This document shows, in pieces, positions 3,662-19,631 of a stretch of DNA of 64,000 nucleotides (positions are counted from its first letter, which is position 1; each line of letters opens with the position of its first letter). Below the pieces are notes generated by a model that worked only from the letters and a program-made list of their open reading frames with translations, was not told where the DNA came from and did not search any database. The translations under genes and the position numbers were made by a program. The DNA is taken from assembly GCA_028683385.1 (NCBI GenBank), contig JAQUIJ010000023.1, forward strand, positions 1 through 64,000, read 5' to 3'. The stretch is from Prolixibacteraceae bacterium (GTDB lineage Bacteria; Bacteroidota; Bacteroidia; Bacteroidales; Prolixibacteraceae).

Positions 3662-5371
3662 ATGAAGAATTTAATATATATATGTATAGCCGCAACTTCG
3701 CTGCTATTTATGAGTTGTGAAGATTTTTTGGATACAAGTAATCTCACAAAAAAGGATACTTCAAATTATCCTCAAACTTTAACCGATGCACAGCAAATGA
3801 TTACTGGAATTTACTCCAATCTTAACTATGCTGTTGCAAGTCCTGCGAGTTCATCTTATTTCGTGTCAGAGCTTGTTTCCGACGACCGTTTTGGTGGAGG
3901 TGGAGAAAATGATAAAATGGTGCAGGCCTTAGATCTTATGCTTAATTATGGGTCAAGCATGCTTCAGGATTTCTGGAATACCCGCTATAAAGGTATTTTC
4001 CGTGCGAACATGGCTATTGAAACGCTTGACAATTGTTCTGGTTTCGAAAGCGATGATCAAAAAAATCAGATAAAAGGAGAAGCTTATTTCATGCGTGCCT
4101 TTTTCTACTCCGAAATGGCAACTCTTTTTGGTCAGGTGCCTTTGGTTGTTGCTACTGATCCGGTAAACTTGCCTAAAGCTACTCCTGAAGAGCTTTATGC
4201 CCAGATTGCTACCGACCTGAAAACAGCTATTGAGATGATGCCATCGAAACCTTACAATTCGGTTGAAGCCGGACACGCAACCAAATGGGCTGCAGAGGCG
4301 CTTATGGCTCGCGTATATTTGTTTTATACCGGATTTTATACAAAAGATGCACTTCCTCTTGTTGGTGGTGGATCTGTATCTAAAGATCAGGTAGTTGCCT
4401 GGCTTGAAGATTGTATCAAAAATAGTGGTCACACACTTGTGGGTGATTACCGCAACCTTTGGTCGTACACCAACAAATATACGGTTGAAGATTATTCATA
4501 CACCAAAGGTCAAGGGTTGAAATGGGTTGAAGACGATGGCGCTGTAAATCCTGAAACCATGTTTTCAGTTAAATTTTCAAACTTTCCAAGCTGGAGCACA
4601 ACTATTGGCTATGCTAATCAGAATGCTCTTTACTTCGGAATCCGTGGTGGTCAGGATTTAGCTAAAACTTTCCCATTTGGTCAAGGCTGGGGAATGGGTC
4701 CGGTAAATCCAACACTTTGGAATGACTGGAAAGCTGCAGAACCAACAGATATTCGCCGTTCAGCTTCTATTATTGATATTCCTCAGGAACTTCCAAATTA
4801 TACAAAGGGTGGATGGGCTGACTTTGTTCAGGAAACTGACTACTGGCAAAAGAAATATAGTCCGGTATCTGCAAAAAATGCTGATGGTGGCTATGCATCT
4901 TCATACAGTGTATTAATGTATGATACTCCTGAAAACTTTCAGCTCGACAATACAATGGATCAGGTTATTATTCGTTTGGCCGATGTTTACCTGATGCACT
5001 CTGAATTAACACAAACCAATACCTATATGAATAAGGTTCGCGAACGTGCTGGCTTGACAGATAAACCTTACTCATTGGCAAACATTCAGAATGAACGTCG
5101 TTGGGAGCTTGCTTTTGAAGGTACTCGCTGGAATGATATCCGCCGTTGGGGTCTTGCTGCCGATTTACTTGAGAAACAAATTGGAGTTGCGTGCTACTAC
5201 AAGAGCACTGCCGATGTGACCAAATCATTTGGTGGAGGTTACAAGGCACGCTACAATGCGACGAAAGGATTTTTCCCGATTCCTGAAGCTCAAATTGCTC
5301 TTTCACAAGGTGTCTTGGTCCAGAACGAAGGCTGGGGAACTACTGGTGCGGAGTATACCGGATGGAAATAA
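3662..5371 (+). CDS. SusD/RagB-family glycan-binding outer-membrane lipoprotein
   Basis: Surface lipoprotein that lids the SusC channel and binds oligosaccharide. It has 569 residues, normal for the family. A lipoprotein signal ends at LLFMSC (Cys19) followed by EDFLD; acidic residues just after the cysteine fit the Bacteroidota surface-export signal. TPR-like helices follow, with the SusD phrase GEAYFMRAFFYSEMATLFGQVPLV near 140-165. The C-terminal part carries NERRWELAFEGTRWNDIRRWG, the RagB/SusD signature, and ends in the usual FFPIPEAQIALS. It starts 12 bases after susC. Binding specificity is unknown. Confidence 0.96.
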   Translation: MKNLIYICIAATSLLFMSCEDFLDTSNLTKKDTSNYPQTLTDAQQMITGIYSNLNYAVASPASSSYFVSELVSDDRFGGGGENDKMVQALDLMLNYGSSMLQDFWNTRYKGIFRANMAIETLDNCSGFESDDQKNQIKGEAYFMRAFFYSEMATLFGQVPLVVATDPVNLPKATPEELYAQIATDLKTAIEMMPSKPYNSVEAGHATKWAAEALMARVYLFYTGFYTKDALPLVGGGSVSKDQVVAWLEDCIKNSGHTLVGDYRNLWSYTNKYTVEDYSYTKGQGLKWVEDDGAVNPETMFSVKFSNFPSWSTTIGYANQNALYFGIRGGQDLAKTFPFGQGWGMGPVNPTLWNDWKAAEPTDIRRSASIIDIPQELPNYTKGGWADFVQETDYWQKKYSPVSAKNADGGYASSYSVLMYDTPENFQLDNTMDQVIIRLADVYLMHSELTQTNTYMNKVRERAGLTDKPYSLANIQNERRWELAFEGTRWNDIRRWGLAADLLEKQIGVACYYKSTADVTKSFGGGYKARYNATKGFFPIPEAQIALSQGVLVQNEGWGTTGAEYTGWK

Positions 5372-5404: not shown

Positions 5405-6238
5405 ATGAAAAATATAATATATGCTTTGTGCATGTTGGCCATTGTTCTGGTAGCGTGTGACCCTATTGAAAATCGTGATTCAATCGGAGGTGCAATTAGC
5501 GCCGATCAATTGGACGTAACAGTCACTCCGATTGTTGTTAATGGCAAAAAATCGAACAAAGTCGTGTTAACTAATAATAGCCCTGTATTATCATCATGGG
5601 ATTACGGCTTAAAGATTTCTCAGAAGCAATCTGACACGATACTTTTGGTCGTTCCGGGAAATGCTACAATTACATTTACGGGATTAAATCCAGACGGAAG
5701 TAAAATAACCAAAGATCTTCAGGTAACTGTTGACGATCTTACTTATCCTGTTGCGCCACAATGGGGATACCTTTGCGGATCGGGCCAGAAGACATGGGTA
5801 TGGGACGAAACTGCCAGTTCATGTTTTGGTAACGGAGGATATTTGGGCAATAATTCACCAGGTTGGTGGGCGCTTAAAATCGGTGAGCTCGATGGCCAGG
5901 CTGCTGGCGAAGGCGAAGGCGCTTCAATGATTTTCTCTACTGCTGGTGGTACTCTTACCAAAAACTACACCAATGGCACTGCTGCCAAGGTCGGTAAGTT
6001 TGATTTTGATATGTCGAAAACAACAGCCGATGGAAATGGAGCAACTTGGGCTCAAGGTGTGTTAACTACATCAAACGTGACCGTACTTTGTGGTATTTCA
6101 ATCAATGAGGGGAAGAAGAATGTGAATTCATACGACATTCTCTCGTTGGATAATGATAAAATGACACTTTCTTATCATGCACCAGGAACTGGTGGTTGGG
6201 GAGAGGCTTGGTTTTGGCTGTTTAGAAAAGCTGATTAA
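5405..6238 (+). CDS. Putative surface glycan-binding lipoprotein of the SusCD operon
   Basis: Third gene of the SusCD operon, 33 bases after susD and before a strong terminator. It has 277 residues, with a type II signal ending at LVAC (Cys18) followed by DPIEN, again acidic at the start of the mature protein. About 45-110 looks like an immunoglobulin/PKD-like beta domain (strands around VVLTNNSPVLSSW and ITFTGLNPDG). About 115-277 is a tryptophan-rich beta domain (WVWDE, GWWALKIGEL, FWLFRKAD) that could form a carbohydrate-binding sandwich. The position matches SusE/SusF-type proteins, but I recognise no named family. Glycan binding is inferred from position and aromatic content. Confidence 0.7.
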   Translation: MKNIIYALCMLAIVLVACDPIENRDSIGGAISADQLDVTVTPIVVNGKKSNKVVLTNNSPVLSSWDYGLKISQKQSDTILLVVPGNATITFTGLNPDGSKITKDLQVTVDDLTYPVAPQWGYLCGSGQKTWVWDETASSCFGNGGYLGNNSPGWWALKIGELDGQAAGEGEGASMIFSTAGGTLTKNYTNGTAAKVGKFDFDMSKTTADGNGATWAQGVLTTSNVTVLCGISINEGKKNVNSYDILSLDNDKMTLSYHAPGTGGWGEAWFWLFRKAD

Positions 6239-6344: not shown

Positions 6345-6938
6345 ATGAAAAATTCTGTTTTTGTTTTGTTCTTGTTTCTTATTTCCTGCCAATCCAGAAA
6401 TAATTATACCATTGTTGGTCAATTGTCCGACAAAACCTACGATGGTGAACTCATTTACCTGGTACCGATGGAGAATGCTTCAAAGGAAAGAGTAGATTCA
6501 ACAGTCATAAAGGACGGATCTTTTCAATTTGAGGGATTTGCAAAAATTCCGGAGATGTATGTTATTCGGGCGAAGCCAGTATTGAGATATAACCTTGAAG
6601 AGCTTTTAGTGGTTCGTGAGGCTGGTAAATTGAACGTAAAAATAGATAAAAGCAGCTCTGTTCATGGCACAGCACTCAACGACTCACTTCAGTATTGGAA
6701 AGCGCAAAAAATGAAGTTCGATCTTATGAACGCCGAATTGATAAAACAATACCGCGATGCCAGCGATAGTGTGAAACAAGATTTAAAACAACGGGCTGAT
6801 TTGTTGAACATTGATGCTACAAACTTTCACTTTAATTTTGTATTGAATAACAAAGAAAATGCTGTTGGTCAGTTTGTTCAAAAAATGATGAGTCGCTCTT
6901 TTAGTGAGGAGCAAAAACAGAAACTGAATGTAAAATGA
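6345..6938 (+). CDS. DUF4369-domain lipoprotein
   Basis: Small lipoprotein of 197 residues with a signal peptide ending in LISC (Cys15) and QSRNN after it. Residues about 20-115 match the DUF4369 pattern often found at the N-terminus of Bacteroidota thiol:disulfide oxidoreductases: YTIVGQL, LVPMENASKERVDSTVIKDGSF.FEG, then a beta-rich stretch. The rest is helical and charged (about 120-197). The thioredoxin domain that normally follows is missing, so this is a stand-alone version. The next gene starts 9 bases downstream, so it probably leads the DUF6057/CxxCH operon. DUF4369 has no settled biochemical function. Confidence 0.75.
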   Translation: MKNSVFVLFLFLISCQSRNNYTIVGQLSDKTYDGELIYLVPMENASKERVDSTVIKDGSFQFEGFAKIPEMYVIRAKPVLRYNLEELLVVREAGKLNVKIDKSSSVHGTALNDSLQYWKAQKMKFDLMNAELIKQYRDASDSVKQDLKQRADLLNIDATNFHFNFVLNNKENAVGQFVQKMMSRSFSEEQKQKLNVK

Positions 6939-6947
6939 CCTGATTGA

Positions 6948-8684
6948 ATGAAGGGGTATTTCAAAAAATATAATTGGATTTTTCCTGTTGGGCTTGCGGG
7001 GTTGAGTTTTGTGTTTTTTCAATTCTTTTACCCTTACCATTTGTTTTTTAAAGAGCAGATCCAATTGTTTTTGTACACTCCTGATTATTTTCTATCCTAC
7101 TTTAAAAAGCCGGCATGGCTCTCCGCTTATTTGGGCGATTTTCTGACACAGTTTTTTTATCTGCGGGGTGGTGGCGCTGCGATATTGGCTTCCCTTTTTT
7201 GTGTCGAATGGGTGCTGACTGTGAGAGTACTTAAACGAATTACTTCAAGCACAAAAGCGGGGCTGTGGGCTTTGCTCCCGGCTTCTGCCGACTGGGTTCT
7301 CCATTGCAACACTTTACACGGCGTTTCGGTTTCCGTCGGTTTTATCCTCGTTTTGTGTATGTTTTTAATCTATGCTGCTCTTTCCGGAGCGTGGATTTCA
7401 TACGCTATTCTGATCCTATTTTCCTTGACTGGTTATTGGCTTCTGGGTAGCTCATTTCTCATTTTCCCATTTCTGATTTTAGCTTACGATTTTAACAATC
7501 AGCGTGTTCACTGGATGAAATGGATCATTGTTCTGGTCGTTACATTCGCTATCCCGCCAGTTTTAAGGCACCATTATTTGCTTACTCCAATCCAGTCCTT
7601 TATTTTTCCTGCCTTCAGTAAGCAAAGTTTACTTTTACAAGGAGCGCTCTTGCTTTCGGTTATAAGCTCCTTTTTCCTGAAAAAGATTGAAGCAACTTAC
7701 TCTCAATTGATCAGTTTTGGAATCGTTACTGTATTGGCATTTGTACTTTCCTTAGGAATAATAAACAAAGCCGATTTTAACCTCGAAAAGGTTCTTTCAC
7801 TCGATGGTGAAACCTATTTCGGAAACCCTGATCGAGTCATCGAACTCTCAAAAAAATACGATTTAAAAAATAAGCAGGCGGCCTATTTTACTAACATGGC
7901 CCTGACTCAGAAAAGTCTTTTGGCCGAAAACCTACTCGATTTTTATCAGCCATTTTCGCTGGGGCTAATTCCTCCGGTGACACCTGAAGAAAACTGGCAA
8001 TCGATATTTGTCAGTAACGAAGTTTTTTTCCTGATCGGCGACATAAACATGGCCCAGCATTCGGCTATGCTTGGAAATACCTTCTCGCCATACCAGCGAA
8101 GTTCGCGAATGATCCGACGTTTGGCCGAAATCAACATGGTGACCGGCGATTCTGCGGCGGCTATGAAATACCTGCGGATTCTTTCGAAAACTCTTTTTCA
8201 CCGAAAATGGGCTGAAAGCCAGGTGAAGATGGTTCAATCTTCAGAAACAAATAAATGGCTTGCCGGCAAACGAAGTCAGGTTTCTGATGCTGATCTGTTG
8301 CGAAAATCGAACGATTATCTGTCATCGCTTCAATTCCTTGTTGTGCAACATCCTGACAATCTTGTAGCTGTTGATTACCTGCTTTGTTACCTGTTGCTCA
8401 ATAAAGAGGTTAAGCTATTTCGCGAAAACTACGATCGCTATTACCTGAAACTGAATCGCGCGGTTCCAAAAGTATATGCCGAAGCTTTACTTATTCAGTT
8501 GGTTACCGACAAAGCCTCGCAGCAAGAGGCACAATCGTATTCGATCCATCCTGAAATTGTTACGAGGTTTACCGAATATACCCGTATTTTCGAGCAAACT
8601 TCAGGAGATATGAGCGCGCTGAATAAGCAATTCTCGAAATCGTACTGGTTTTATTATCACTTTGCCACAATTCAGAAGAAATGA
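6948..8684 (+). CDS. DUF6057-like polytopic membrane protein with TPR-like C-terminal half (copy 1)
   Basis: 578 residues. The first half holds about nine hydrophobic segments (about residues 12-30, 60-85, 100-160, 165-230, 245-275). The second half (about 285-578) is soluble and helical, resembling TPR repeats, with phrases such as QRSSRMIRRLAEINMVTGD. It belongs with Bacteroidota membrane proteins I know as DUF6057; I am fairly but not fully sure of the number. A paralogue lies at 10288-12045 with the same order of parts. Its stop overlaps the next start in ATGA, so it is translationally coupled to the CxxCH lipoprotein. The pair probably forms one membrane assembly. Function unknown. Confidence 0.75.
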   Translation: MKGYFKKYNWIFPVGLAGLSFVFFQFFYPYHLFFKEQIQLFLYTPDYFLSYFKKPAWLSAYLGDFLTQFFYLRGGGAAILASLFCVEWVLTVRVLKRITSSTKAGLWALLPASADWVLHCNTLHGVSVSVGFILVLCMFLIYAALSGAWISYAILILFSLTGYWLLGSSFLIFPFLILAYDFNNQRVHWMKWIIVLVVTFAIPPVLRHHYLLTPIQSFIFPAFSKQSLLLQGALLLSVISSFFLKKIEATYSQLISFGIVTVLAFVLSLGIINKADFNLEKVLSLDGETYFGNPDRVIELSKKYDLKNKQAAYFTNMALTQKSLLAENLLDFYQPFSLGLIPPVTPEENWQSIFVSNEVFFLIGDINMAQHSAMLGNTFSPYQRSSRMIRRLAEINMVTGDSAAAMKYLRILSKTLFHRKWAESQVKMVQSSETNKWLAGKRSQVSDADLLRKSNDYLSSLQFLVVQHPDNLVAVDYLLCYLLLNKEVKLFRENYDRYYLKLNRAVPKVYAEALLIQLVTDKASQQEAQSYSIHPEIVTRFTEYTRIFEQTSGDMSALNKQFSKSYWFYYHFATIQKK

Positions 8685-10126
8685 GAGCATATTTGATTGG
8701 ATATCTGATAACAGTTGTTCTTTTTTCGTGCAATGGTCCCGAAAATGTAACGGTCAGCAAGGGTTTTCCTCCGGTTTATCCTGATTATATTGATGTTACT
8801 ATTCCTCAGAATATAGCTCCTCTCAATTTTCTATTACGGAATAAACCTGAAAAACTAGTTGTAACGATCAAGGGGAAATCAGATTCAATAACAGTAAAAG
8901 GCGAACAGAAAATTGAAATACCAATCGATCATTGGAAGAATCTGCTCGCATCTAACCTGAATGACAGCTTGCTTGTCAGAGTTTTGGCTCGCCTGAACGG
9001 AGAGTGGGTTCAATACAAACCGTTTAAATGGTATGTGAAAAAGGATAAAATTGATTCGTACATGAGCTACCGGCTTATTGAACCCGGTTATGAAGTCTGG
9101 AATAAATTGCAGATTGTGGAACGCAATATTGAAAGTTTTGATGAGCGTGTGTTGGCCGACAACAACCTAACCCAAGGCAGTTGTATGAATTGCCACATTC
9201 ACGGGAGTCAGAGTGGAAAGCTTTCGATGTTTCACCTTCGCGGCGAAAAGGGAGGAACAATCCTGAATAAAGATGGCAAGTTGCGAAAAATAAATACTCG
9301 TGCCAATGGCATGATTTCGAATGCGGTTTATGGCGATTTTCATCCCGATGGACGATACGCTGTCTTCTCCACCAACATCATTATTCCTGAATTACACGCC
9401 AATCGAACTGACCGACTCGAAGTTTATGACACTGCTTCCGATTTGGTTGTGATTGATTTGGATTCGGATAAGGCAATTACCCAGCCGTTTCTTTCGGATA
9501 CCACGGCTTTCGAAACATTCCCGGTGTTTTCGGCTGACGGAAAGTGGATCTATTTCTGCTCTGCACCCAAAGTTATTTTGCCCGATAGCATCAAATCGCT
9601 GAAATACAACATTTGCAGAGTAGGATTCGATGCTGTAAAAGGCGAAATTGGAACGAAAGTCGATACTTTGTGGAATGCAAAGAAAATAAGTGGTTCGGTT
9701 TGTCATTTGAAAGCTTCACCCGACGGTAAGTTTTTGCTCTATACTGTTGCCGATTATGGAACTTTCCCGATTTGGCACCGGGAGGCCGATTTGCAGATGA
9801 TGAACCTTCAAACTGGTGAAATCGAAAAACTGGAGAAAGTAAATGGGCCAAATTCCGATTCATACCACAGTTGGTCATCGAATAGTCGTTGGTTTGTTTT
9901 TGCCAGTAAACGCGACGACGGTATTTACGGTAAACCTTATTTTTGCTATATTGATGCTTCAGGAAAAGCTTACAAACCGTTTGTTTTACCGCAACGCGAT
10001 CCTGAAATTTATGATTACATGTTGAAATCGTTTAATATTCCTGATTTGTCTGATTCTCCGGTACCTTTTGATGCGGCTGATGTCGAAAAGGTTTATATGG
10101 AGCAGGAGGCTGAACAGGTAAAGTAA
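8681..10126 (+). CDS. CxxCH-containing TolB-like beta-propeller lipoprotein (copy 1)
   Basis: 481 residues. The signal ends at VVLFSC (Cys17). A beta-rich N-terminal domain (about 25-135, VYPDYIDVTIPQNIAPLNF) leads to a haem c attachment motif Cys168-Met-Asn-Cys171-His172. Propeller-like repeats follow with DFHPDGRYAVFSTN, PVFSADGKWIYFCSA, KASPDGKFLLYTVADYG and SWSSNSRWFVFASKR. The combination predicts an exported lipid-anchored single-haem propeller. TolB-like propellers usually mediate protein contacts. The paralogue at 12052-13638 keeps the same CxxCH, so the motif is probably functional. The start is set by the 4-base overlap with the DUF6057-like gene. Electron transfer, sensing and structural haem all remain possible. 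Confidence 0.8.
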   Translation: MRAYLIGYLITVVLFSCNGPENVTVSKGFPPVYPDYIDVTIPQNIAPLNFLLRNKPEKLVVTIKGKSDSITVKGEQKIEIPIDHWKNLLASNLNDSLLVRVLARLNGEWVQYKPFKWYVKKDKIDSYMSYRLIEPGYEVWNKLQIVERNIESFDERVLADNNLTQGSCMNCHIHGSQSGKLSMFHLRGEKGGTILNKDGKLRKINTRANGMISNAVYGDFHPDGRYAVFSTNIIIPELHANRTDRLEVYDTASDLVVIDLDSDKAITQPFLSDTTAFETFPVFSADGKWIYFCSAPKVILPDSIKSLKYNICRVGFDAVKGEIGTKVDTLWNAKKISGSVCHLKASPDGKFLLYTVADYGTFPIWHREADLQMMNLQTGEIEKLEKVNGPNSDSYHSWSSNSRWFVFASKRDDGIYGKPYFCYIDASGKAYKPFVLPQRDPEIYDYMLKSFNIPDLSDSPVPFDAADVEKVYMEQEAEQVK

Positions 10127-10127
10127 A

Positions 10128-10260
10128 AGCCTCCCCCAAACCCCCTCCAAAAGAGGGGGCTTAAAGATGTGGGATTGTTAAGTCATCTGCTTTGAAAAGA
10201 ACGTGTTGCGAATATACTCTGCCCAAAGTCTCCCCTTTCGGGGGAGATTTAGAGGGGGCT
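10128..10260. repeat. Two-hairpin palindromic repeat, copy A (REPIN-like)
   Basis: 133 bases starting one base after the preceding stop. Left arm: AGCCTCCCCCAAACCCCCTC with its own hairpin (CCCCCTC/GAGGGGG, 10141-10159). Right arm: hairpin CTCCCC-TTTC-GGGGGAG (about 10230-10246) then ATTTAGAGGGGGCT. The arms are roughly inverted repeats of each other, and the core of about 65 bases matches neither other copy. It lies inside the operon and may affect mRNA stability or readthrough. Confidence 0.85.
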
Positions 10261-10287
10261 GATATTTTAAATAATTAATTTTTGAAA

Positions 10288-12045
10288 ATGAAATACTTTT
10301 CTCTTGATAAACTACTTTCACTGGCCTTTGGACTTGTTGTCTTTTGGTTTTTTGCCTTTTTGTACCCGTTTCATCTGAATTATCAGGAACAATACCAAAT
10401 GTTTTTGTTTTCATCCGATTACTTCCTGAATTTCTTTGCCAAACCCGGTGGAATCAGCGATTACATTGGTAATTTCTTCACCCAGTTCTATTTTTATTCG
10501 TGGGTTGGAGCTCTGATTCTTGCTGTATTGTTAGTTGTTCTTCAGCGTGCCGTTTGGTTTATTTCAAGGCAACTTGGTGCAAAGCCGGTTTTCGTTCCGA
10601 TTACTTTTATTCCTTCATTGCTTTATTGGAGCTTGTTTTGCGACGAAAACTACCTGTTGGGAGGTTTAATCGTTATGTTGATTGTGTCGGGATTTATTTC
10701 GGCTTTTCTACTGATAAAGCCTGTAAATATTCGGATGGGCTTTGTATTCGTTTCGATTCCGGTTTTATTCTGGATGGCTGGAGGCGCTTTTGTGTTGCTT
10801 CCTTTATTCGCCGTGGTTTTTGAAGTAGTGAACCGGAATCTGAAAGTAGTTCATTTGTCAATTTTCGCATTGGTATCAACTGTGTTTTCATATGTAATTC
10901 CAACACTTTGCAAGTCATTATTTCTGCAATATCCGCTTCGTCAGGTGTGGATTGGCGCCAATTATTTCCGATTCCCGGTTAATGTTCCGGTTTCGGTTGG
11001 TATTGTTGCTCTTTTGCTGGTCGTCATTCCATTTGCTCTTTATTACTTTTCAAAAATTATAAAACGAGATAATTCGAAGATATTACTTGTAGGTCAGTTG
11101 ATTGTGCTGGTTTTCGGAGCTTCTTTTTTGATCACTCATTCCGTTGATATGGGAAAGGAAGAGGTTATGGCTTACGATTTCAATTGCCGGATGCGAAAAT
11201 GGGATCGGGTAATTGCTATGGCCGAGAAAAAGGCGCCAACCACACCGCTTTCAGTTACCTGCCTGAATTTGGCTCTGGCAAAAGAAGACTTGCTCGGCGA
11301 ACGCATGTTCAGCTATTTCCAGAATGGTATTGGCGGACTGATGCCCGATTTCGTTCGCGACTATACCATCCCGATGATTGCCGGCGAAGTGTATTATCAT
11401 TTGGGCTTTGTAAATACGGCTCAGCGTTTTGCTTTCGAGGCTATGGAGGCTTTGCCCGATTACCAGAAAAGTTCGCGTGCCGTTATGCGTCTGGCCGAAA
11501 CCAACATCATAAACGGCAATTATGAAGTTGCCGGAAAATATCTGAGGTTGTTGCAGAAAACTTTTTATTACAAGGGCTGGGCGACAAAGGCTTTGGCAAC
11601 AATGAAAGATGAAAAACTGATTGCACAGCATCCGGAGTGGGGCTGGCTGCGCAAATGCCGAACTCAGGAAGACTTCCTTTTCAGCGAGGGTGAAAAAGAC
11701 ATGATGTTGGGAGTTCTATTCAGACAAAATCCTGAAAACCGCATGGCTTTTGAGTATTTAATGGCTTATACGTTATTAAACAAGGATCTGAAACATTTTC
11801 TTCAATATTTCCCGCTGAGCGAATCGCTGAAGTATCGTGCTATTCCTAAAAGTTATCAGGAGGCGCTGTATTATGCCTGGACCCAAACGAATAATGATCC
11901 AACTAAAGATATTCCTTACCCGATAAGTAATGTGATCAAGCAACGGTTTCAGGCATTTCAGAAAATGCCGGGACAACCGAATTCAGGTTCGGGCAAAAAC
12001 GAGTTTTCAGATACGTACTGGTATTATCTTTATTTCGTAAAATAA
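10288..12045 (+). CDS. DUF6057-like polytopic membrane protein with TPR-like C-terminal half (copy 2)
   Basis: Paralogue of the gene at 6948. I start it at the ATG at 10288 (MKYFSLDKLL), not the in-frame TTG two codons earlier, giving 585 residues. Hydrophobic segments fill about 8-280. A soluble helical part follows with shared phrases: FNCRMRKWDRVIAMAEKK matches the NPDRVIELSKKY part of copy 1, and YQKSSRAVMRLAETNIINGNYEVAGKYLRLLQKT matches the same repeat region. It sits 27 bases after repeat A and 6 bases before the second CxxCH lipoprotein, so gene order equals that of the first pair. Clear sequence divergence shows the duplication is old. Confidence 0.75.
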   Translation: MKYFSLDKLLSLAFGLVVFWFFAFLYPFHLNYQEQYQMFLFSSDYFLNFFAKPGGISDYIGNFFTQFYFYSWVGALILAVLLVVLQRAVWFISRQLGAKPVFVPITFIPSLLYWSLFCDENYLLGGLIVMLIVSGFISAFLLIKPVNIRMGFVFVSIPVLFWMAGGAFVLLPLFAVVFEVVNRNLKVVHLSIFALVSTVFSYVIPTLCKSLFLQYPLRQVWIGANYFRFPVNVPVSVGIVALLLVVIPFALYYFSKIIKRDNSKILLVGQLIVLVFGASFLITHSVDMGKEEVMAYDFNCRMRKWDRVIAMAEKKAPTTPLSVTCLNLALAKEDLLGERMFSYFQNGIGGLMPDFVRDYTIPMIAGEVYYHLGFVNTAQRFAFEAMEALPDYQKSSRAVMRLAETNIINGNYEVAGKYLRLLQKTFYYKGWATKALATMKDEKLIAQHPEWGWLRKCRTQEDFLFSEGEKDMMLGVLFRQNPENRMAFEYLMAYTLLNKDLKHFLQYFPLSESLKYRAIPKSYQEALYYAWTQTNNDPTKDIPYPISNVIKQRFQAFQKMPGQPNSGSGKNEFSDTYWYYLYFVK

Positions 12046-12051
12046 TCGGCT

Positions 12052-13638
12052 ATGAGTGAAATACAATTCAAAAGATATCTGTTGGTATCCCATACCCCCA
12101 ACCTCCTAAAGGGGGCTAAATCATTCGCGGTATGCCAAGTTCCCTTTAGGGAATTTAGGGGTAATTTATACGGGATTTTAGCCTTTCTTCTTTTGTCGCT
12201 TACCCTTGTTTTATCAGGATGCGGAGGGAAAGTAAATCCAGATGCGGTTCTCAAAGAAAAACCAAATCTTTTTCCCGACTATGTGGATGTGACCATTCCT
12301 GCCACGATTGCCCCTTTAAATTTTAAAGTTCAGGAGGAATATACGGCTATAAATGCAGTTTTCGAGGGGAAGAATAACCAGGTTATTCATGTTCAGGATA
12401 GCAAGGAAATTTGTATTCCGGCTGGCGATTGGGGTAAAATGTTGGAAACCACCAAAGGCGATAGCCTGAAAGTAACTGTTTCGGTAAAGCAACACGACCG
12501 CTGGAAGCAGTTTGCTCCTTTTCGTTTGCACGTGAGCGAAACGCCTATTGATTATGGTTTGGTGTACCGCCTGATTGCTCCCGGATATGAAGTTTACAGC
12601 AAAATGGGCATTTACCAGCGCAACCTTTCAAATTTCGACCAAAGTCCGATTGTTGAAAATACGCTGGTTCCCGGAAGTTGTGTGAATTGCCATTCGTTTC
12701 GCCAGTCCGATCCAAAAAATATGAGTTTGCATATCAGAGGCCAAAAAGGAGGTACGATTTTGCTTGCCGATGGGAAAATGAATGTTTTGAACACGAAGAC
12801 CGACAAAACCATTTCAAATTTTGTTTATCCGTTCTGGCATCCATCGGGTAATTATATCGCCTATTCGGTTAACAACACCCATCAGGTTTTTCACGAAGAA
12901 AAGGGCTCCCGGGTTGAAGTTGGCGATGCCGCTTCGGATATTGTTGTTTACGACATCAAAAACAATCAGGCCATAAGTTGTAATTTGCTAATGCAGGACA
13001 GTATTTTCGAGACATTTCCGTCGTTTTCTGCTGATGGCCGTACACTTTATTTTTGCCGGGCAACTCATAAAAAAATGCCTGCTGAATACAAAGAGGTGAA
13101 ATATAACCTTTGCAGTATTGCTTTTAATCCTGAAAATGGCACGTTTGGCGACCGGATTGATACTTTATTCAATGCAACTGCGCAGAGCAAAAGCGTTACT
13201 TTTCCGCGTCCTTCGCCCGATGGAAAATACATCATGTTTACCTTGGCGGATTACGGAAATTTTTCGATTTGGCACAAGGAAGCCGATTTGTATTTGCTTG
13301 ATTTGAAAACCGGACAGACCCGTCGCCTCGACGAAGTGAACAGCGACAACACCGAGAGTTATCATTCGTGGTCGTCGAATTCGCGCTGGTTTGTGTTCAG
13401 TAGTCGCCGGATGGATGGATTATACACGCGTCCTTTTATCGCTTACCTCGATGAAAATGGTAAGGCCAGGAAGCCATTCCTGTTGCCGCAACCGGATACT
13501 GAATTTTACGACCGGCTGCTTTATTCATTCAATATTCCTGAATTTGTCAGCGGAAAAGTGGAGGTTGATCCGAACATCATCGAAAAGTTGGTTTCAGGTG
13601 AAAAGCGGGTTCAGGTAGAATCGCTAAAATTGCAATAA
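12052..13638 (+). CDS. CxxCH-containing TolB-like beta-propeller lipoprotein (copy 2), N-terminus carrying a repeat
   Basis: Second haem-motif propeller lipoprotein, 528 residues. The mature part aligns with copy 1: FPDYVDVTIPATIAPLNF, RLIAPGYEVY, Cys210-Val-Asn-Cys213-His214, then propeller phrases PFWHPSGNYIAYSV, PSFSADGRTLYFC, SPDGKYIMFTLADYG and SWSSNSRWFVFSSRR. The signal peptide is odd. The hydrophobic core (GILAFLLLSLTLVLSGC, Cys57) lies about 40 residues from the only ATG, because a 69-base palindromic repeat (12094-12162) supplies 23 in-frame codons. No other ATG lies between. The in-frame TTG at 12082 is upstream of the repeat; the next lies inside the hydrophobic core. The product either has a very long n-region or is poorly exported. 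Confidence 0.8.
   Translation: MSEIQFKRYLLVSHTPNLLKGAKSFAVCQVPFREFRGNLYGILAFLLLSLTLVLSGCGGKVNPDAVLKEKPNLFPDYVDVTIPATIAPLNFKVQEEYTAINAVFEGKNNQVIHVQDSKEICIPAGDWGKMLETTKGDSLKVTVSVKQHDRWKQFAPFRLHVSETPIDYGLVYRLIAPGYEVYSKMGIYQRNLSNFDQSPIVENTLVPGSCVNCHSFRQSDPKNMSLHIRGQKGGTILLADGKMNVLNTKTDKTISNFVYPFWHPSGNYIAYSVNNTHQVFHEEKGSRVEVGDAASDIVVYDIKNNQAISCNLLMQDSIFETFPSFSADGRTLYFCRATHKKMPAEYKEVKYNLCSIAFNPENGTFGDRIDTLFNATAQSKSVTFPRPSPDGKYIMFTLADYGNFSIWHKEADLYLLDLKTGQTRRLDEVNSDNTESYHSWSSNSRWFVFSSRRMDGLYTRPFIAYLDENGKARKPFLLPQPDTEFYDRLLYSFNIPEFVSGKVEVDPNIIEKLVSGEKRVQVESLKLQ
12094..12162. repeat. Two-hairpin palindromic repeat, copy B, inside a coding sequence
   Basis: 69 bases from ACCCCCAACCTCC to TTTAGGGGT. 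Left arm CCTCCTAAAGGGGGCT, right arm AGTTCCCTTTAGGGAATTTAGGGG. The core of about 20 bases is unrelated to copies A and C. It has exactly 23 codons without a stop in the frame of the host gene. Confidence 0.85.
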
Positions 13639-13723
13639 AATCATTTGCAGAAATTAAAAATACAAGTAGGTTTAAATCAATTTTGTGATGAGAGAAGGAA
13701 AAATAAAAGTTACACAGGGAATA

Positions 13724-14881
13724 ATGATAAAGCCTAAATATCAGATTTTTATGCCTGGATGTGCCGGGACTTTTGAAGAACAGTGGTCCGATTGCTTCAA
13801 CGAGTTTCAGCTTTTCCTGAATACGTATCCGAATCAAAAAGCGTTTATTGCCCGGGTTTTTGTTGGAGCCAATAGCCCGGATGAGTATTTCAGTTATTCA
13901 AAACAGATCGGAAATCGTTTAAATGCGACTGGTATTCCTTTCAGCGTGTTGGCCGAATCGCCTGAATCTCCTGTGTTGGTGATGATTGAAGCCGGATTTG
14001 TAAATTCTGCCGATATTCAGATTGAGTATGGGATGGCCGGAACAGTCAGATACAGTAAGATCAATTCTCCGGGATACAATGAATACTGGTTTGCCGGTGC
14101 CAGTAGCGGAATAGAAGGAGAATCGACCAGTGAAAAATCGGCCAATGCTTTTGCCTCACTTCTGGATGCCTTTCTAAAATTGGGAATTGGGTTCAATTCG
14201 GTTTTCAGACAGTGGAATTACGTTGAGCAAATTTTTGATTTTGATCAGGTAGAGAATCGGCAAAGGCAGAATTACCAGCTTTTTAACGAAATTCGCAATG
14301 AGTATTATTCGAAATACCTTACTGGCCCCGGATTTCCGGCTGCAACGGGTATTGGTACCAACCTCAATGGAGTAACTATTGAGTGCATGGCGGTAACCAG
14401 CGATAGTGAAGTTACTACAGTTGCAATCAGTAATCCGAAACAGCTTAATTCATATAAATATGGCCAGGATGTGCTGAAAGGCGACCCACAAACGAGCTGC
14501 AAGCAAAATCAACCACCACAGTTCGAACGGGCCCGCCTGATGACAAACGGCAACGGTGCTCGATTATTTATTTCCGGAACTGCATCCATTGTTGGGCAAG
14601 AAACTATCGGTTTGAATGATGTCGAAAAGCAAACCTATGTTACCATTGAGAATATTGGACAGTTGGTAAGCGAAAAAAATCTGAGAGCGCATTGTCCGGA
14701 GCTAGCTGTTTCCCCGGATAAGTATGCTTATGTGCGTGTATATGTGAAGAACGAAGAAGATATTCCAACGGTCAAAGTCATTTGCGAGAACCATTTTGGA
14801 GCCGTGCCTATGACTTTTGTAAAAGCTGATATTTGTCGCGCCGATTTGCTGGTTGAAATAGAAGCCGAGATGATTAGCTAA
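13724..14881 (+). CDS. FkbO/Hyg5-family chorismatase-like protein (RidA-like fold)
   Basis: Likely a chorismate-hydrolase relative: FkbO, Hyg5 and XanB2 convert chorismate to dihydroxycyclohexadiene or hydroxybenzoate products. From the ATG at 13724, which has AGGGA upstream, it has 385 residues; GTG and ATG at 13685/13688 are in frame but less convincing. Family phrases appear in order: RQWNY (Trp164), a helix with RQNYQLFNEIR, GFPAATGIGTNL (Phe204 in FPAATGIG), AISNPKQLNSYKY, PPQFERARLM, LFISGTASIVGQETIG, and the RidA-like end YVRVYV...LLVEIEAEM. No signal peptide is seen, so it is cytoplasmic. It lies between the CxxCH lipoprotein and the GH2 gene, an unexpected place. Whether it accepts chorismate or another enol-ether acid is unknown. 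Confidence 0.72.
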   Translation: MIKPKYQIFMPGCAGTFEEQWSDCFNEFQLFLNTYPNQKAFIARVFVGANSPDEYFSYSKQIGNRLNATGIPFSVLAESPESPVLVMIEAGFVNSADIQIEYGMAGTVRYSKINSPGYNEYWFAGASSGIEGESTSEKSANAFASLLDAFLKLGIGFNSVFRQWNYVEQIFDFDQVENRQRQNYQLFNEIRNEYYSKYLTGPGFPAATGIGTNLNGVTIECMAVTSDSEVTTVAISNPKQLNSYKYGQDVLKGDPQTSCKQNQPPQFERARLMTNGNGARLFISGTASIVGQETIGLNDVEKQTYVTIENIGQLVSEKNLRAHCPELAVSPDKYAYVRVYVKNEEDIPTVKVICENHFGAVPMTFVKADICRADLLVEIEAEMIS

Positions 14882-14928: not shown

Positions 14929-17373
14929 ATGAACCTAAAACCCTTTACCTTACAAATTGCTGTCGTTCTGCTCGTTTTTTCTTTTCTGACATCCACCGGA
15001 CAATCCAGAGAGTTGACCACGTTGCAAACTGGATGGAAATTTTCGAAAGGAAATTTCGATAAAGCCACTCAGCCGAAATTCGACGATTCAAAATGGCAGG
15101 ACGTTACCATTCCACACGATTGGGCTATTGCCGAACCTACGGTCGTCGATGGCGATGGAAATACCGGCAAACTTCCATGGAAAGGCGAAGGCTGGTATCG
15201 CAAAAGTCTTGAAATTCCGGCAGCATATTCCGGTAAAAACATTATCCTGATTTTCGACGGAATAATGTCGAAGCCTGAAGTTTACCTAAATGGACAGTTG
15301 GCCGGCAAATGGGATTACGGATACAATTCGTTTTACCTCGATGTTACCAAACTGGTTAATTTCAGTGGTAAAAATCAATTGGCAATTCATGCCGATACCC
15401 GAGATCACGATAGTCGCTGGTATCCCGGAGCCGGTATTTACCGGAAAATTCAGATGATGGTGGTTGATCCCATTCACGTTGGCGTTTGGGGAACACAGAT
15501 AACTACTCCAATTGTAAAATCAAACTTTGCCGAAGTTCGGATCATGAATACCGTGATTAATAATTCGGGAAATGCGGAAGATAAAATCAAAGTTGAGAAT
15601 ATCATTCTGAACCAGAAAGGCGCCGAAATTGCCCGAAAAGATGTTACAGCTAAAATAGCTTCAGGAGCAAGCAAGGAAGTTGAAACCAGCATCGGCTTGA
15701 CTGATCCGCAACGCTGGGACATTACCAGTCCGGTGATGTATCAGGTGAAAACCAACATTTACAAAGGCGACAAATTGGTTGATTCATCGGTTAATTCGTT
15801 CGGAGTGCGCACCATCCGGATCACACCCAACAATGGTTTATACCTGAACGATAAACGGGTTCAGCTAAAAGGAGTGAACCTTCATCACGATCAGGGATTG
15901 CTTGGTGGTTCTTTTTATCCGCGGGCGATGGAACGCCAGATTGAAATTATGAAATCGATGGGCTGTAATGCCATCCGCACTAGCCATAACATGCCAGCCC
16001 CCGAATTATTGGAATTGTGCGATAAAATGGGAATTCTGGTGTTCGATGAAGCCTTCGATAAATACGACAAAAAAGCTGACATTACTGAAACGACCGATTT
16101 CGAGGATTTTGCTCACCGTAACATTCAGAATTTTGTTGAACGCGACCGGAACCATCCTTGTATATTTATATGGAGTTTTGGAAACGAAATGGCCGATGTT
16201 CAATATAACCAAAACAATGGTTTCCATCGGATGCAAACCATGATCAATTATATTCACAAATTCGATCCAACTCGTCCGGTTACTATGGCGTGCGATAATA
16301 CCAACAGCGCATTATTGCGCCATTTCGATTTTTACGATGTCCACAGTTGGAATTACGGTCGTCGTTACAGTCTCGCCCGCCAGATGGAACCCAACAAAGC
16401 CGTCATTGTTAGTGAGTCAGGTTCAACGGTGAGTACACGAGGATTTTACGAATTGCCGCTTCCTGAAAAAAGAAGTGAATTCACCAAATCGCTTCAGGTG
16501 AGTTCTTACGATTTGAATGTTCCGGCTTGGGCCGACTTGCCCGATGAAGATTTTATGTGGCAACAGGATGAAGAATACATTGCCGGCGAATTTGTCTGGA
16601 CAGGCTTCGATTATTTGGGAGAACCAACGCCTTACGGAAACGATTACGCTAAAGGCCATGGGTTGACCGATAAAGAAGCTTCGCGCAGTTCGTACTTTGG
16701 AATCGTCGATTTGTGCGGCATCCCAAAAGATCGTTATTTCCTGTACAAAAGCTACTGGAAACCTGAAGAAACTACCGTCCACATTCTTCCTCACTGGAAC
16801 TGGGATGGTAGCAAAGTCGATAAAATTCCGGTATTTGTGTACACGAATGGAGACTGTGCCGAACTTTTCCTGAATGGAAAGTCGTTGGGCGAAAAATGCA
16901 AAAATCCAACTTCATTGAAATCAATAGAGCGTTTCCGCCTGATGTGGAACGATGTGACTTACCAGCCTGGCGAACTTAAAGCGGTTGCTTACAAGGAAGG
17001 TGTGGTCATTGGCGAAGAGACCTTGAAAACTGCCGGTGAGCCTTATCAAATCCGACTGACACCTGACCGATCAAAGATTCATGCCGATGGAATGGATTTG
17101 TCGTATGTGTTGGTTGAAGCTGTTGACAAAGATGGAAACGTTTGTCCGTTGGCGAACAACAAAATCGAACTGTCAATCAGTGGGCCAGGCAGAATTGCCG
17201 GTGTTGGTAATGGCAATCCTCAGTCGTTCGATTCTTTTCAGGCCAACTATGTCAATCTTTTCTATGGAAAGGCAATGCTCATTGTAGGCTCTGGCTTTGA
17301 AAAAGGCGACATCAGCATAACCGCAACAGGCGACGGTTTGGTAAAAGACTTAAAGCTGATCAAATCAGAATAA
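14929..17373 (+). CDS. GH2 family glycoside hydrolase (beta-galactosidase-like)
   Basis: Exported 814-residue glycosidase, signal peptide ending near TGQ (about 25). Order: sugar-binding jelly-roll (about 30-190, with FDDSKWQDVTIPHDWAI and GEGWYRK), Ig-like sandwich (about 200-300), TIM barrel (about 305-600), then DUF4982-like and C-terminal Ig-like domains (about 630-810). The acid/base is Glu420 in SFGNEMAD and the nucleophile Glu496 in VIVSESGS; both are present. KGVNLHHDQGLLG is the usual barrel entry. GH2 members of this layout cut beta-galactosides, beta-mannosides or beta-glucuronides, and the sequence alone does not decide. It is 47 bases after the chorismatase-like gene and 53 bases before the GH3 gene. 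Confidence 0.93.
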   Translation: MNLKPFTLQIAVVLLVFSFLTSTGQSRELTTLQTGWKFSKGNFDKATQPKFDDSKWQDVTIPHDWAIAEPTVVDGDGNTGKLPWKGEGWYRKSLEIPAAYSGKNIILIFDGIMSKPEVYLNGQLAGKWDYGYNSFYLDVTKLVNFSGKNQLAIHADTRDHDSRWYPGAGIYRKIQMMVVDPIHVGVWGTQITTPIVKSNFAEVRIMNTVINNSGNAEDKIKVENIILNQKGAEIARKDVTAKIASGASKEVETSIGLTDPQRWDITSPVMYQVKTNIYKGDKLVDSSVNSFGVRTIRITPNNGLYLNDKRVQLKGVNLHHDQGLLGGSFYPRAMERQIEIMKSMGCNAIRTSHNMPAPELLELCDKMGILVFDEAFDKYDKKADITETTDFEDFAHRNIQNFVERDRNHPCIFIWSFGNEMADVQYNQNNGFHRMQTMINYIHKFDPTRPVTMACDNTNSALLRHFDFYDVHSWNYGRRYSLARQMEPNKAVIVSESGSTVSTRGFYELPLPEKRSEFTKSLQVSSYDLNVPAWADLPDEDFMWQQDEEYIAGEFVWTGFDYLGEPTPYGNDYAKGHGLTDKEASRSSYFGIVDLCGIPKDRYFLYKSYWKPEETTVHILPHWNWDGSKVDKIPVFVYTNGDCAELFLNGKSLGEKCKNPTSLKSIERFRLMWNDVTYQPGELKAVAYKEGVVIGEETLKTAGEPYQIRLTPDRSKIHADGMDLSYVLVEAVDKDGNVCPLANNKIELSISGPGRIAGVGNGNPQSFDSFQANYVNLFYGKAMLIVGSGFEKGDISITATGDGLVKDLKLIKSE

Positions 17374-17426: not shown

Positions 17427-19631
17427 ATGATACGAAATCTTTTTATGCTAGTAGTCCTTTTTAGGACTACGCTTATCCTATCGGCACAAAACCCTGTTCC
17501 GGTCTATCTCGATCCAGCAAAATTAGTTGAAGAACGGGTTGAGAATGCTTTGTCGCTGATGACTACTGAAGAAAAAGTAGCTCTTTGTCACGCGCAGTCG
17601 AAATTTAGCAGCAAAGGCGTTGCACGTTTGGGAATTCCTGAAATATGGATGAGCGATGGACCACACGGTGTTCGTGCCGAAATTGAATGGGACAGCTGGG
17701 GCTATGCCAATTTTACAAACGACTCGTGCCTGGCTTTTCCGGCGCTGACTTGTTTGGCATCGACTTTTAACCCTGAACTGGCTTCACGCTACGGACAAGC
17801 CATTGGCGAAGAAGCCCGCTACCGCAAAAAGGAAATAATTCTCGGTCCCGGAGTAAACATTTACCGCTCGCCTTTGAATGGGCGCAACTTCGAATACATG
17901 GGAGAAGATCCTTATCTGGCTTCGAAAATGGTAGTTCCTTATGTTCAGGGCGTACAAAAAAGTGGAGTAGCTGCTTGCGTGAAGCATTTTGCCCTGAATA
18001 ATCAGGAAAACTGGAGAGGACACATTGACGTTGAGGTGAGCGATCGTGCACTTTACGAAATTTATCTACCAGCATTTAAGGCTGCTGTAATGGAAGGGAA
18101 AGCATGGTCGATTATGGGTTCGTATAATAAATTTCGTGGTGAGCATTGCTGTCACAACGATTTGTTGCTGAATAAAATCCTGAAAACCGACTGGAAATTT
18201 GATGGCGCCGTAATTACCGACTGGGGTGGTGCGCACGATGATCGTCAGGCAGCTATGAACGGACTAGACATTGAAATGGGTACCGGAACCGATGGATTGA
18301 CAACATCAGTTAAAAATGCCTACGATTATTATCATTTGGCAAATCCGCTCCTGAAAGCTGTAAAAAATGGCGATGTTCCGATGGAAGTTTTGAACGACAA
18401 AGCCCGTCGGGTGCTCCGCCTGATTTTCCGTACCAGCATGAGCCCGAATCGCCCATGGGGCAGTTTTGTGACTCCCGAACATTCGAAAGTGGCCAACAAT
18501 GTGGCTAAGGAGGGAATTATTTTGCTGAAAAATGATCAAAATATTTTACCGGTTAACCCCAAGTTGTACAAGAAAATCTTGGTAGTTGGCGAAAATGCAA
18601 CGCGTAAAATGACCATTGGCGGCGGAAGTTCGGAATTGAAAACCCAATACGAAATTTCACCGCTTCAGGGATTCAAAAATGCTTTTGGTTCGCAATGCGA
18701 AGTAAAATATGCCATGGGTTATGCTTCGGGTCCATCGGCTTACGGGCGTGAAATTCCATCGAAACTGAATGCCGATACACTTCTGAATGAGGCTGTACGA
18801 ATGGCTAATGATGCTGACCTGATTCTTTATGTCGGTGGATTAAATAAGAACCATTTTCAGGATTGTGAAGGCGGAGATCGCAAAACGTATGAATTGCCTT
18901 TCGGACAGAATAAACTGATTGGCGAACTGATTAGAACCAATAAAAAAGTGGTGGTGGTTCTTGTCAGTGGAAATGCGGTATCCATGCCGTGGGTGAATCA
19001 GGTTCCGGCAGTTGTGCAGGCCTGGTATCTGGGGTCCGAATCGGGAAATGCCATTGCCTCGGTTCTTTCAGGCGAAACCAATCCTTCAGGTAAATTGCCA
19101 TTTACTTTTGGTGTGAAACTGAACGATTACGGTGCTCATTCGTTCGACAAGCTTTGCTTTCCGGGCGACAGCATTAAAGAGGTTTACAAGGAAGATATTC
19201 TGGTTGGCTACCGTTGGTTCGACACCAAAAATATTGTACCGCAATTCCCGTTTGGGTACGGACTTTCTTACACCACTTTCCAGGTTGGAAAAGCGTCGGT
19301 TGACAAGCTAAAATATAGAAAGAATGATGTAGTAAAATTGTCGGCTACCATAACAAACTCCGGAAAGTCGGATGGTGCTGAAGTGATTCAGGCATATATT
19401 CAGGATAAAGTTTCGTCGGTTCCACGTCCAACAAAAGAGTTGAAAGGCTTCAATAAGGTTAACCTGAAAGCGGGCGAAAGCAAAGTGGTGAGTTTGGAAT
19501 TACCGGTCAGCGAATGGGGATTTTACGACGAAACCACCAAACAATTTAAGATAGAGCCCGGCCAGTTCGTGATTAATCTCGGAACTTCGTCGCGCGACAT
19601 CAAACAACAGATTCCGGTAACGGTAGAATAA
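17427..19631 (+). CDS. GH3 family beta-glycosidase
   Basis: Exported 734-residue GH3 enzyme removing terminal beta-linked sugars, signal cleaved near LSAQ (about 20). The N-terminal (alpha/beta)8 domain (about 25-330) has MSDGPHGVR, KHFALNNQE and the nucleophile Asp265 in VITDWGGAHD. The alpha/beta sandwich (about 375-590) has EGIILLKND and GGGSSELKTQ. The C-terminal fibronectin-III-like domain (about 620-730) has the standard entry FPFGYGLSYTTF. It is the last gene of the PUL-like block, before a strong hairpin. Beta-glucosidase or beta-xylosidase activity are both possible. Confidence 0.94.
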   Translation: MIRNLFMLVVLFRTTLILSAQNPVPVYLDPAKLVEERVENALSLMTTEEKVALCHAQSKFSSKGVARLGIPEIWMSDGPHGVRAEIEWDSWGYANFTNDSCLAFPALTCLASTFNPELASRYGQAIGEEARYRKKEIILGPGVNIYRSPLNGRNFEYMGEDPYLASKMVVPYVQGVQKSGVAACVKHFALNNQENWRGHIDVEVSDRALYEIYLPAFKAAVMEGKAWSIMGSYNKFRGEHCCHNDLLLNKILKTDWKFDGAVITDWGGAHDDRQAAMNGLDIEMGTGTDGLTTSVKNAYDYYHLANPLLKAVKNGDVPMEVLNDKARRVLRLIFRTSMSPNRPWGSFVTPEHSKVANNVAKEGIILLKNDQNILPVNPKLYKKILVVGENATRKMTIGGGSSELKTQYEISPLQGFKNAFGSQCEVKYAMGYASGPSAYGREIPSKLNADTLLNEAVRMANDADLILYVGGLNKNHFQDCEGGDRKTYELPFGQNKLIGELIRTNKKVVVVLVSGNAVSMPWVNQVPAVVQAWYLGSESGNAIASVLSGETNPSGKLPFTFGVKLNDYGAHSFDKLCFPGDSIKEVYKEDILVGYRWFDTKNIVPQFPFGYGLSYTTFQVGKASVDKLKYRKNDVVKLSATITNSGKSDGAEVIQAYIQDKVSSVPRPTKELKGFNKVNLKAGESKVVSLELPVSEWGFYDETTKQFKIEPGQFVINLGTSSRDIKQQIPVTVE

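Follow-up and report, generated by a model that had tools for sequence, protein, structure and literature searches.

The stretch considered here, referred to as the window, comprises positions 1 to 64,000 of contig JAQUIJ010000023.1 from a Prolixibacteraceae bacterium (assembly GCA_028683385.1), and carries two consecutive gene pairs, each encoding a membrane protein of the family DUF6057 (PF19529) followed by a lipoprotein with propeller-type repeats. All features are on the forward strand unless otherwise indicated. In pair 1, the DUF6057 gene (6948..8684; E 6.5e-146, 488 bits, profile positions 5-569) encodes a membrane domain followed by a C-terminal domain resembling tetratricopeptide repeats (TPR), and overlaps by 4 bases with the propeller gene (8681..10126; Pfam PD40 repeats), whose sequence contains a CMNCH motif (C168-H172) at 9182..9196. 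Pair 2 consists of a second DUF6057 gene (10288..12045; E 5.3e-182, 607.1 bits, profile positions 7-568) and a second propeller gene (12052..13638; Pfam PD40 repeats, AlphaFold2 model), with CVNCH at 12679..12693. The curated cut-off of PF19529 is 29.8 bits, and both copies are full-length matches above it. A stand-alone DUF4369 lipoprotein gene (6345..6938; PF14289, E 4.1e-15) precedes the pairs, no thioredoxin domain being found in its product, for which PF14289 is the sole Pfam match, while a gene for a chorismatase-like protein of predicted FkbO/Hyg5 fold (13685..14881; PF21168, the FkbO/Hyg5 chorismatase N-domain, E 1.1e-9) follows them. Between the first DUF6057 gene and the chorismatase-like gene, the successive intergenic gaps measure -4, 161, 6, and 46 bases. 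A preliminary description of this DNA had listed these six open reading frames (ORFs); all were recovered at the same positions, with the same DUF6057/propeller order in both pairs and the CxxCH motifs in register (GSCMNCH and GSCVNCH), and Pfam bore out the identities it had given to the leading and trailing genes.

The pairing extends well beyond the window. Named genomes were scanned for the module, and of 564 confirmed stretches the best 80 were kept as loci, their labels being Bacteroides, Parabacteroides, Phocaeicola, Prevotella, Draconibacterium, and others. In these loci DUF6057 is encoded directly upstream of 163 of the 171 propellers for which there was room to judge; the other eight comprise four with over-long ORF starts, three separated from DUF6057 by a chorismatase gene (in L084 by a DUF4369 gene as well), and one, in L140, that is considered below. 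CxxCH was present in all 178 propellers longer than 400 amino acids from the named loci, and CxNCH in 177 of them, counts that are biased by the motif-based search, in which CxNCH was one of two patterns. A fairer measure is provided by 20 regions hand-chosen from matches to DUF6057 alone in relatives (the L196 and L198 contigs are also in the named set): a propeller adjoins DUF6057 in 20/20, and 25/25 propellers in these loci keep CxNCH.

The partners have also evolved in step. In a mirror-tree comparison of 165 adjacent pairs, drawn from the named loci, L030-L032, and the window, DUF6057 and propeller distances were correlated with r 0.956, as against a mean of 0.109 and a maximum of 0.253 when partners were shuffled within each locus so that genome ancestry was kept (200 shuffles). 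Average-linkage clustering into two groups split both proteins identically, into 70 and 95 pairs without a mismatch (165/165), although class 2 in part collects what is left over, in that the distant L030-L032 pairs were placed there yet lie far from both classes; at three clusters, two pairs disagree between the proteins. The window holds one pair of each class (pair 1 class 1, pair 2 class 2), and both classes are represented in 53 of 83 loci, counting the window as one. Within the window the DUF6057 copies are only 29% identical to each other and the propellers 44%, and these identities together with the co-occurrence of the classes rule out a recent tandem duplication. Because the trees match and the two-class split is shared, the apparent duplicate represents two paralogous modules of old origin, in each of which DUF6057 has its own propeller. 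The proposal that the pair is a unit retained twice is thus strongly supported by adjacency, motif retention, and mirror trees. A third pair is located elsewhere in the source genome (G000:C41), beside genes for a sigma factor, FecR, SusC, and SusD. Three pairs in a row were seen in L064, L089, and L195, and in L068 an extra gene lies between two pairs.

In a phylum-wide sample of 296 genomes DUF6057 scored above cut-off in 3, and among 61 relatives in 24, the source genome being included in both counts. In the family of Segatella copri, sampled as 298 genomes of which seven were already known to carry the module, it was above cut-off in 241, often in several copies each; by hand count 165 of the 298 had a strong match (E below 1e-30), leaving 76 of the 241 with weaker ones. 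Two genomes of other classes have a single pair together with a chorismatase-like gene. Weak phylum-wide matches, which include an FtsW and a PMT_2 protein (L009, L018), were not counted. The best DUF6057 match fell between 1e-3 and 1e-30 in 84 of 298 genomes (family of G387), a set distinct from the strong matches that may represent a diverged or fragmentary DUF6057 relative. In the open-access literature searched, the name DUF6057 appeared in no paper, and nothing was found on DUF4369 with polysaccharide utilization or on 'cytochrome C biosynthesis protein' with SusD and Prevotella. Across many Bacteroidales, including gut species, the DUF6057 and propeller genes are passed on jointly and co-evolve.

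The AlphaFold2 model of DUF6057 from pair 2 (predicted local distance difference test score, pLDDT, 94.8; predicted template modelling score, pTM, 0.92) has helices at residues 27-69 that separate membrane helices 1 and 2, and shows a TPR-like C-terminal half, which is probably periplasmic judging from charge distribution by eye. When a DUF6057 alignment was compared by hhalign with 30 PMT_2 matches from relatives, a probability of 79.7% (E 1.5e-5) was obtained over 195 columns, the alignment being collinear from the first membrane helix onward; the membrane half alone gave 57.5%. Negative controls scored 3.5% for FtsW, 0.2% for a sugar transporter (these two labels were verified on one member each), and 0.1% for SusC, and reversed sequences gave 1.5% for DUF6057 and 3.7% for PMT_2, as compared with 92% for TMEM260/PMT_2, a known pair of the glycosyltransferase C (GT-C) type. 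The similarity of DUF6057 to PMT_2 (PF13231) spans membrane helices one to six and includes an acidic residue after helix 1 and extra helices between helices 1 and 2; DUF6057 differs in its TPR-like C-terminal half, its dedicated propeller lipoprotein, and the lack of any solved relative found, a PDB sequence search having returned nothing meaningful (best E 0.032). Glu34 and Gln66 are each kept in 74 of 78 DUF6057 sequences, and Glu34 (10387..10389 in pair 2; the corresponding Glu of pair 1, past the first membrane helix, is at 7053..7055) aligns opposite an acidic stretch of PMT_2 proteins. It is a candidate catalytic acid of a GT-C-like domain, with a predicted position in the first external loop. 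Together these comparisons support a GT-C-like fold for the membrane half, from which glycosyl-transfer activity may be expected. The 'membrane-anchored assembly' of the preliminary description misses this enzyme-like character of DUF6057.

The model of propeller 2 (pLDDT 90.6, pTM 0.87) combines an N-terminal beta part with a propeller-like strand repeat, and its solved-structure matches in Foldseek are mostly propeller proteins, with low TM-scores by query length of no more than 0.39 among the matches listed. C210, N212, C213, H214, R229, and H438 are invariant in 70/70 propellers, whereas H227, a likely cross-strand neighbour of the motif, is Tyr in 12/70 and Gln in two other propellers. 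According to DSSP assignment of this ligand-free model, CxNCH lies in a strand of residues 210-217 that is followed by another at 220-229, the block having pLDDT values of 83 to 93. Because the motif is modelled as a beta strand, its two Cys residues would face opposite sides. A lipobox was detected with a loose pattern in 142 of 176 propellers, and because few acidic residues follow the lipobox Cys, the sequences suggest that the lipoprotein is on the periplasmic side rather than at the surface.

The chorismatase-like protein matches TIGR04444 with E 2.9e-47 and a score of 161.5, half the NCBIfam cut-off of 325. With a profile of 24 family members, the structures of Hyg5 (5ag3) and FkbO (4bps) were matched at E 3.9e-40 and 2e-31, respectively. 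The Gly (SGTAS), Cys (C327), and catalytic Glu (E334) of Hyg5 are kept in 24/24 non-redundant members, unlike FkbO, which has Ala at the Gly and Cys positions; in the window protein, C384 and E391 (14834..14857) align with Hyg5 C327 and E334. An excerpt of PMC7170507 gives Glu-334 of Hyg5 as catalytic, and Gly-231 and Cys-318, in the numbering of that paper's own enzyme, as marks of the 3-hydroxybenzoate-forming subfamily (PMC7170507). Gly-231 and Cys-318 were matched to Hyg5 positions by our own count on alignments. The residue marks of the CH-II (Hyg5-type) group are present; membership of the family is not claimed because the score is below the curated cut-off. The protein shares the predicted fold and the Glu, Gly, and Cys with the Hyg5/FkbO chorismatases, but differs in its diverged N-terminal half and its tie to an envelope operon. 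No signal peptide was seen in it by eye. The gene accompanies the module, within about 10 kb, in 25 of 83 loci, including those of the two genomes of other classes.

Upstream of the DUF4369 gene, the window encodes a SusC-type TonB-dependent transporter with an N-terminal STN domain (191..3649; Pfam Plug E 2.3e-18, STN E 4e-7), which blastp assigned to SusC neighbour cluster 6 and which is 80% identical to the L062 copy, a SusD-type surface lipoprotein (3662..5371; SusD-like_3 E 1.5e-30, SusD_RagB E 1.9e-26, PDB SusD homologue E 1.2e-28), and a PKD-type lipoprotein ('E'; 5405..6238; neighbour cluster 3) with zero Pfam families above cut-off and a phmmer match to the 'PKD domain protein' 7kv5 (E 1e-9), probably a surface glycan-binding protein. 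Downstream of the chorismatase-like gene are a glycoside hydrolase (GH) of family GH2, resembling the beta-galactosidase GalB below its curated cut-off (14929..17373; an 814-residue gene has the same place in G307), and a GH3 glycosidase (17427..19631), both of them local neighbours. With adjacent SusC and SusD and carbohydrate-active enzymes, this part of the window forms a polysaccharide utilization locus; it shares with SusCD loci that contain a PKD-type protein of the 7kv5 family both the leading SusC, SusD, and PKD lipoprotein genes and the GH2 and GH3 behind, but differs from them in its DUF6057/propeller core and in that no glycoside hydrolase accompanies this core at all of its loci. 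Farther downstream, the minus strand carries a gene (19745-21301) for a 518-residue protein that begins with a DoxX domain (Pfam E 1.5e-6), the long remainder toward its C-terminus matching nothing in Pfam; genes of 518 residues are also located behind the module in L062 and L198.

The window's own genes fall into neighbour clusters that recur across the 83 loci. DUF4369 was found near the module in 56 loci, the PKD-type lipoprotein in 39, SusD in 36, the chorismatase-like gene in 25, and SusC in 24, all lower bounds given that flanks end at 10 kb, and SusD-PKD-DUF4369-pair(s) is a recurring order. The DUF4369 proteins are short (median 210 amino acids), with CxxC absent from 54/56 and present in 2/56. 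An AMP-binding gene of the acyl-ligase type is found within 10 kb of the module in 17/83 loci (for example L098:2772-4439), in a block of ordinary genes common to Prevotella-type loci. Glycoside hydrolases as a part of the unit were rejected after a scan of 86 neighbouring proteins from relatives (102 were eligible and 16 left out; cluster-labelled proteins, including the GH3 of L197, and those shorter than 200 amino acids were set aside), in which GH2, not conserved with the module, was found twice and no other GH family occurred among the best 25 of 159 families by count. Beta-mannan-type GH26, GH130, sugar transporter, and epimerase genes adjoin the module in L079, L080, L086, L090, and L117; loci flanked by GH26/GH130 are labelled Parabacteroides, Mediterranea, Bacteroides, and Prevotella. 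These neighbours suggested a mannan-specific system, an idea that was abandoned because most loci are without such genes. Arylsulfotransferase (ASST) genes are present at L071:16781-18583 and L078:948-2747 (Pfam E 3e-83 and 8e-104), adjoining SusC/SusD genes near a lone DUF6057/propeller pair. The module is therefore SusCD-linked and tied neither to one glycan nor to glycoside hydrolases, so that the link to glycan use proposed in the preliminary description stands through SusCD and the PKD-type lipoprotein only, glycoside hydrolases not being constant neighbours.

Pairing, co-evolution, motif conservation, GT-C profile similarity, and SusCD linkage are direct results of these calculations. 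The reading that we favour, tentatively and at less than even confidence, is of an envelope glycosyl-transfer unit in which a GT-C-like DUF6057 acts with a dedicated propeller lipoprotein in a SusCD-linked setting; its catalysis, topology, substrate, cofactor, and reaction direction are inferred. DUF6057 would be an inner-membrane protein, the N-terminal half of which would be a polyprenyl-phosphate-sugar-dependent glycosyltransferase of GT-C-like type, and the TPR half, probably periplasmic, would hold the propeller partner. This partner, an outer-membrane or periplasmic lipoprotein, would use its beta-propeller, set behind the N-terminal beta part, for substrate binding and would carry a cofactor or metal at the invariant CxNCH. 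Each DUF6057 would work with its own propeller, and because both pairs, of two old classes, appear to be built into a SusCD glycan-uptake system, the likely role would be to transfer a sugar, in the periplasm, onto an imported glycan or a displayed glycoconjugate, or else to remodel one of these.

A number of observations weigh against this reading. Foldseek found no solved structure for the DUF6057 model at E <= 0.001, and GT-C enzymes were not among the best 50 of 703 matches, which were mainly TPR proteins. TMEM260-like proteins (PF11028), a family present in 26/26 genomes searched (the source genome included) with a comparable layout of GT-C plus repeat domain, show no profile similarity to DUF6057 (1.4%, membrane half 0.2%), which speaks against close kinship with that branch. 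The control set of the PMT_2 comparison is small, consisting of two polytopic families, SusC, and reversals, and Glu34 is the only acidic residue conserved at 85% or more in the membrane half. No lipid-carrier or sugar-nucleotide genes were recognised by eye among the recurring neighbour clusters of the 83 loci. As to the pair itself, the propeller comes first in 8 of the 20 DUF6057-selected loci, the L140 propeller is a true exception in having no upstream DUF6057, and G565 has a strong DUF6057 with only a fragment match to the propeller (E 3e-5); L140 and G565 are the only two exceptions that came to light when the refuting conditions set in the preliminary description, homologues lacking CxxCH or each other, were applied.

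The invariant motif lends itself to two other explanations. The propeller may be a c-type haem lipoprotein anchored by DUF6057, the module passing electrons in the envelope, which we consider rather unlikely. As in c-type cytochromes, CxxCH is kept throughout, both in the named loci, with the search bias mentioned, and in the DUF6057-selected ones, and a cytochrome c synthase (PF01578) is encoded in nearly all host genomes tested: it was found in 43 of 44 module genomes and, in the family of Segatella copri, in 161 of 165 strong-DUF6057 genomes as against 105 of 133 others (Fisher p 1.9e-7, a value that ignores kinship and uses a split counted by hand). The stand-alone DUF4369 leading the pairs is also in keeping with a redox role, this domain usually being fused to thioredoxin domains. 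However, c-type haem sites have CxxCH in a helical turn, which the modelled CxNCH, a beta strand in a ligand-free model, does not form; the two Cys residues would by strand geometry face opposite sides, the third residue of the motif is nearly always Asn, unlike in c-type cytochromes, and H227 is Tyr or Gln in some propellers. Four strong-DUF6057 genomes had no synthase match, namely G408 (a ResB fragment), G565 (no full propeller), G428, and G624; neither PF01578 nor PF05140 was matched in G428, G624, or G389, the last being the single miss of the 44, and CxNCH is intact in the propellers of G624 and G389, although these genomes may be incomplete. The haem of the preliminary description is thus a hypothesis, with synthase co-occurrence speaking for it and the modelled strand and the intact motif in these two genomes speaking against it. 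Alternatively, CxNCH may be a non-haem metal site or a redox-active disulfide, catalytic or structural, a possibility that we regard as open to doubt but real. It would account for the six residues invariant in 70/70 and for an Asn nearly as fixed as the Cys, and the modelled strand geometry would favour a metal or a pair of redox-active Cys residues over haem; yet no close metal enzyme was matched, the Foldseek match to a copper thiocyanate dehydrogenase being weak (TM 0.35).

Two further explanations concern the partners of the motif rather than the motif itself. DUF6057 could serve the lipoprotein non-catalytically, as a scaffold or docking protein in the membrane, within SusCD uptake or sensing, as its TPR-like C-terminal half, the tight pairing, and the few conserved polar residues of its membrane half would allow; the GT-C profile similarity and a Glu34 at the catalytic place argue the other way, and on balance such a role seems fairly improbable. 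Finally, the chorismatase-like enzyme may set the pathway, in which case the pair would couple 3-hydroxybenzoate formed in the cytoplasm to a molecule of the envelope, or exchange it with one. The Hyg5-type residues in 24/24 members, matching the marks given in the excerpt of PMC7170507, and the co-location of gene and pair in genomes that belong to other classes are in its favour, as is the AMP-binding gene, five of whose 17 loci also have the chorismatase gene. Nevertheless, the latter is found in only 25/83 loci and scores half the NCBIfam cut-off, 20 of those 25 loci are without the AMP-binding gene, and the ordinary Prevotella-type block in which that gene sits means that local gene order may explain its presence, so that we consider this explanation quite unlikely.

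In its widest and distinctly doubtful form, the glycosyl-transfer reading would make the module a core envelope machine of gut Bacteroidales, in which each class would have its own pairing of a GT-C-type transferase with a cofactor-carrying propeller lipoprotein. Supplied by SusCD, and in some cases by a Hyg5-type chorismatase, these pairs would build or remodel a glycoconjugate, possibly aryl-capped, with a periplasmic redox or metal step. The tight co-evolution of the two proteins in common gut bacteria offers a tractable way into an uncharacterised envelope process, the testable handles being a pair of genes, a single candidate catalytic residue, and a single cofactor motif in the genetically amenable Bacteroides.

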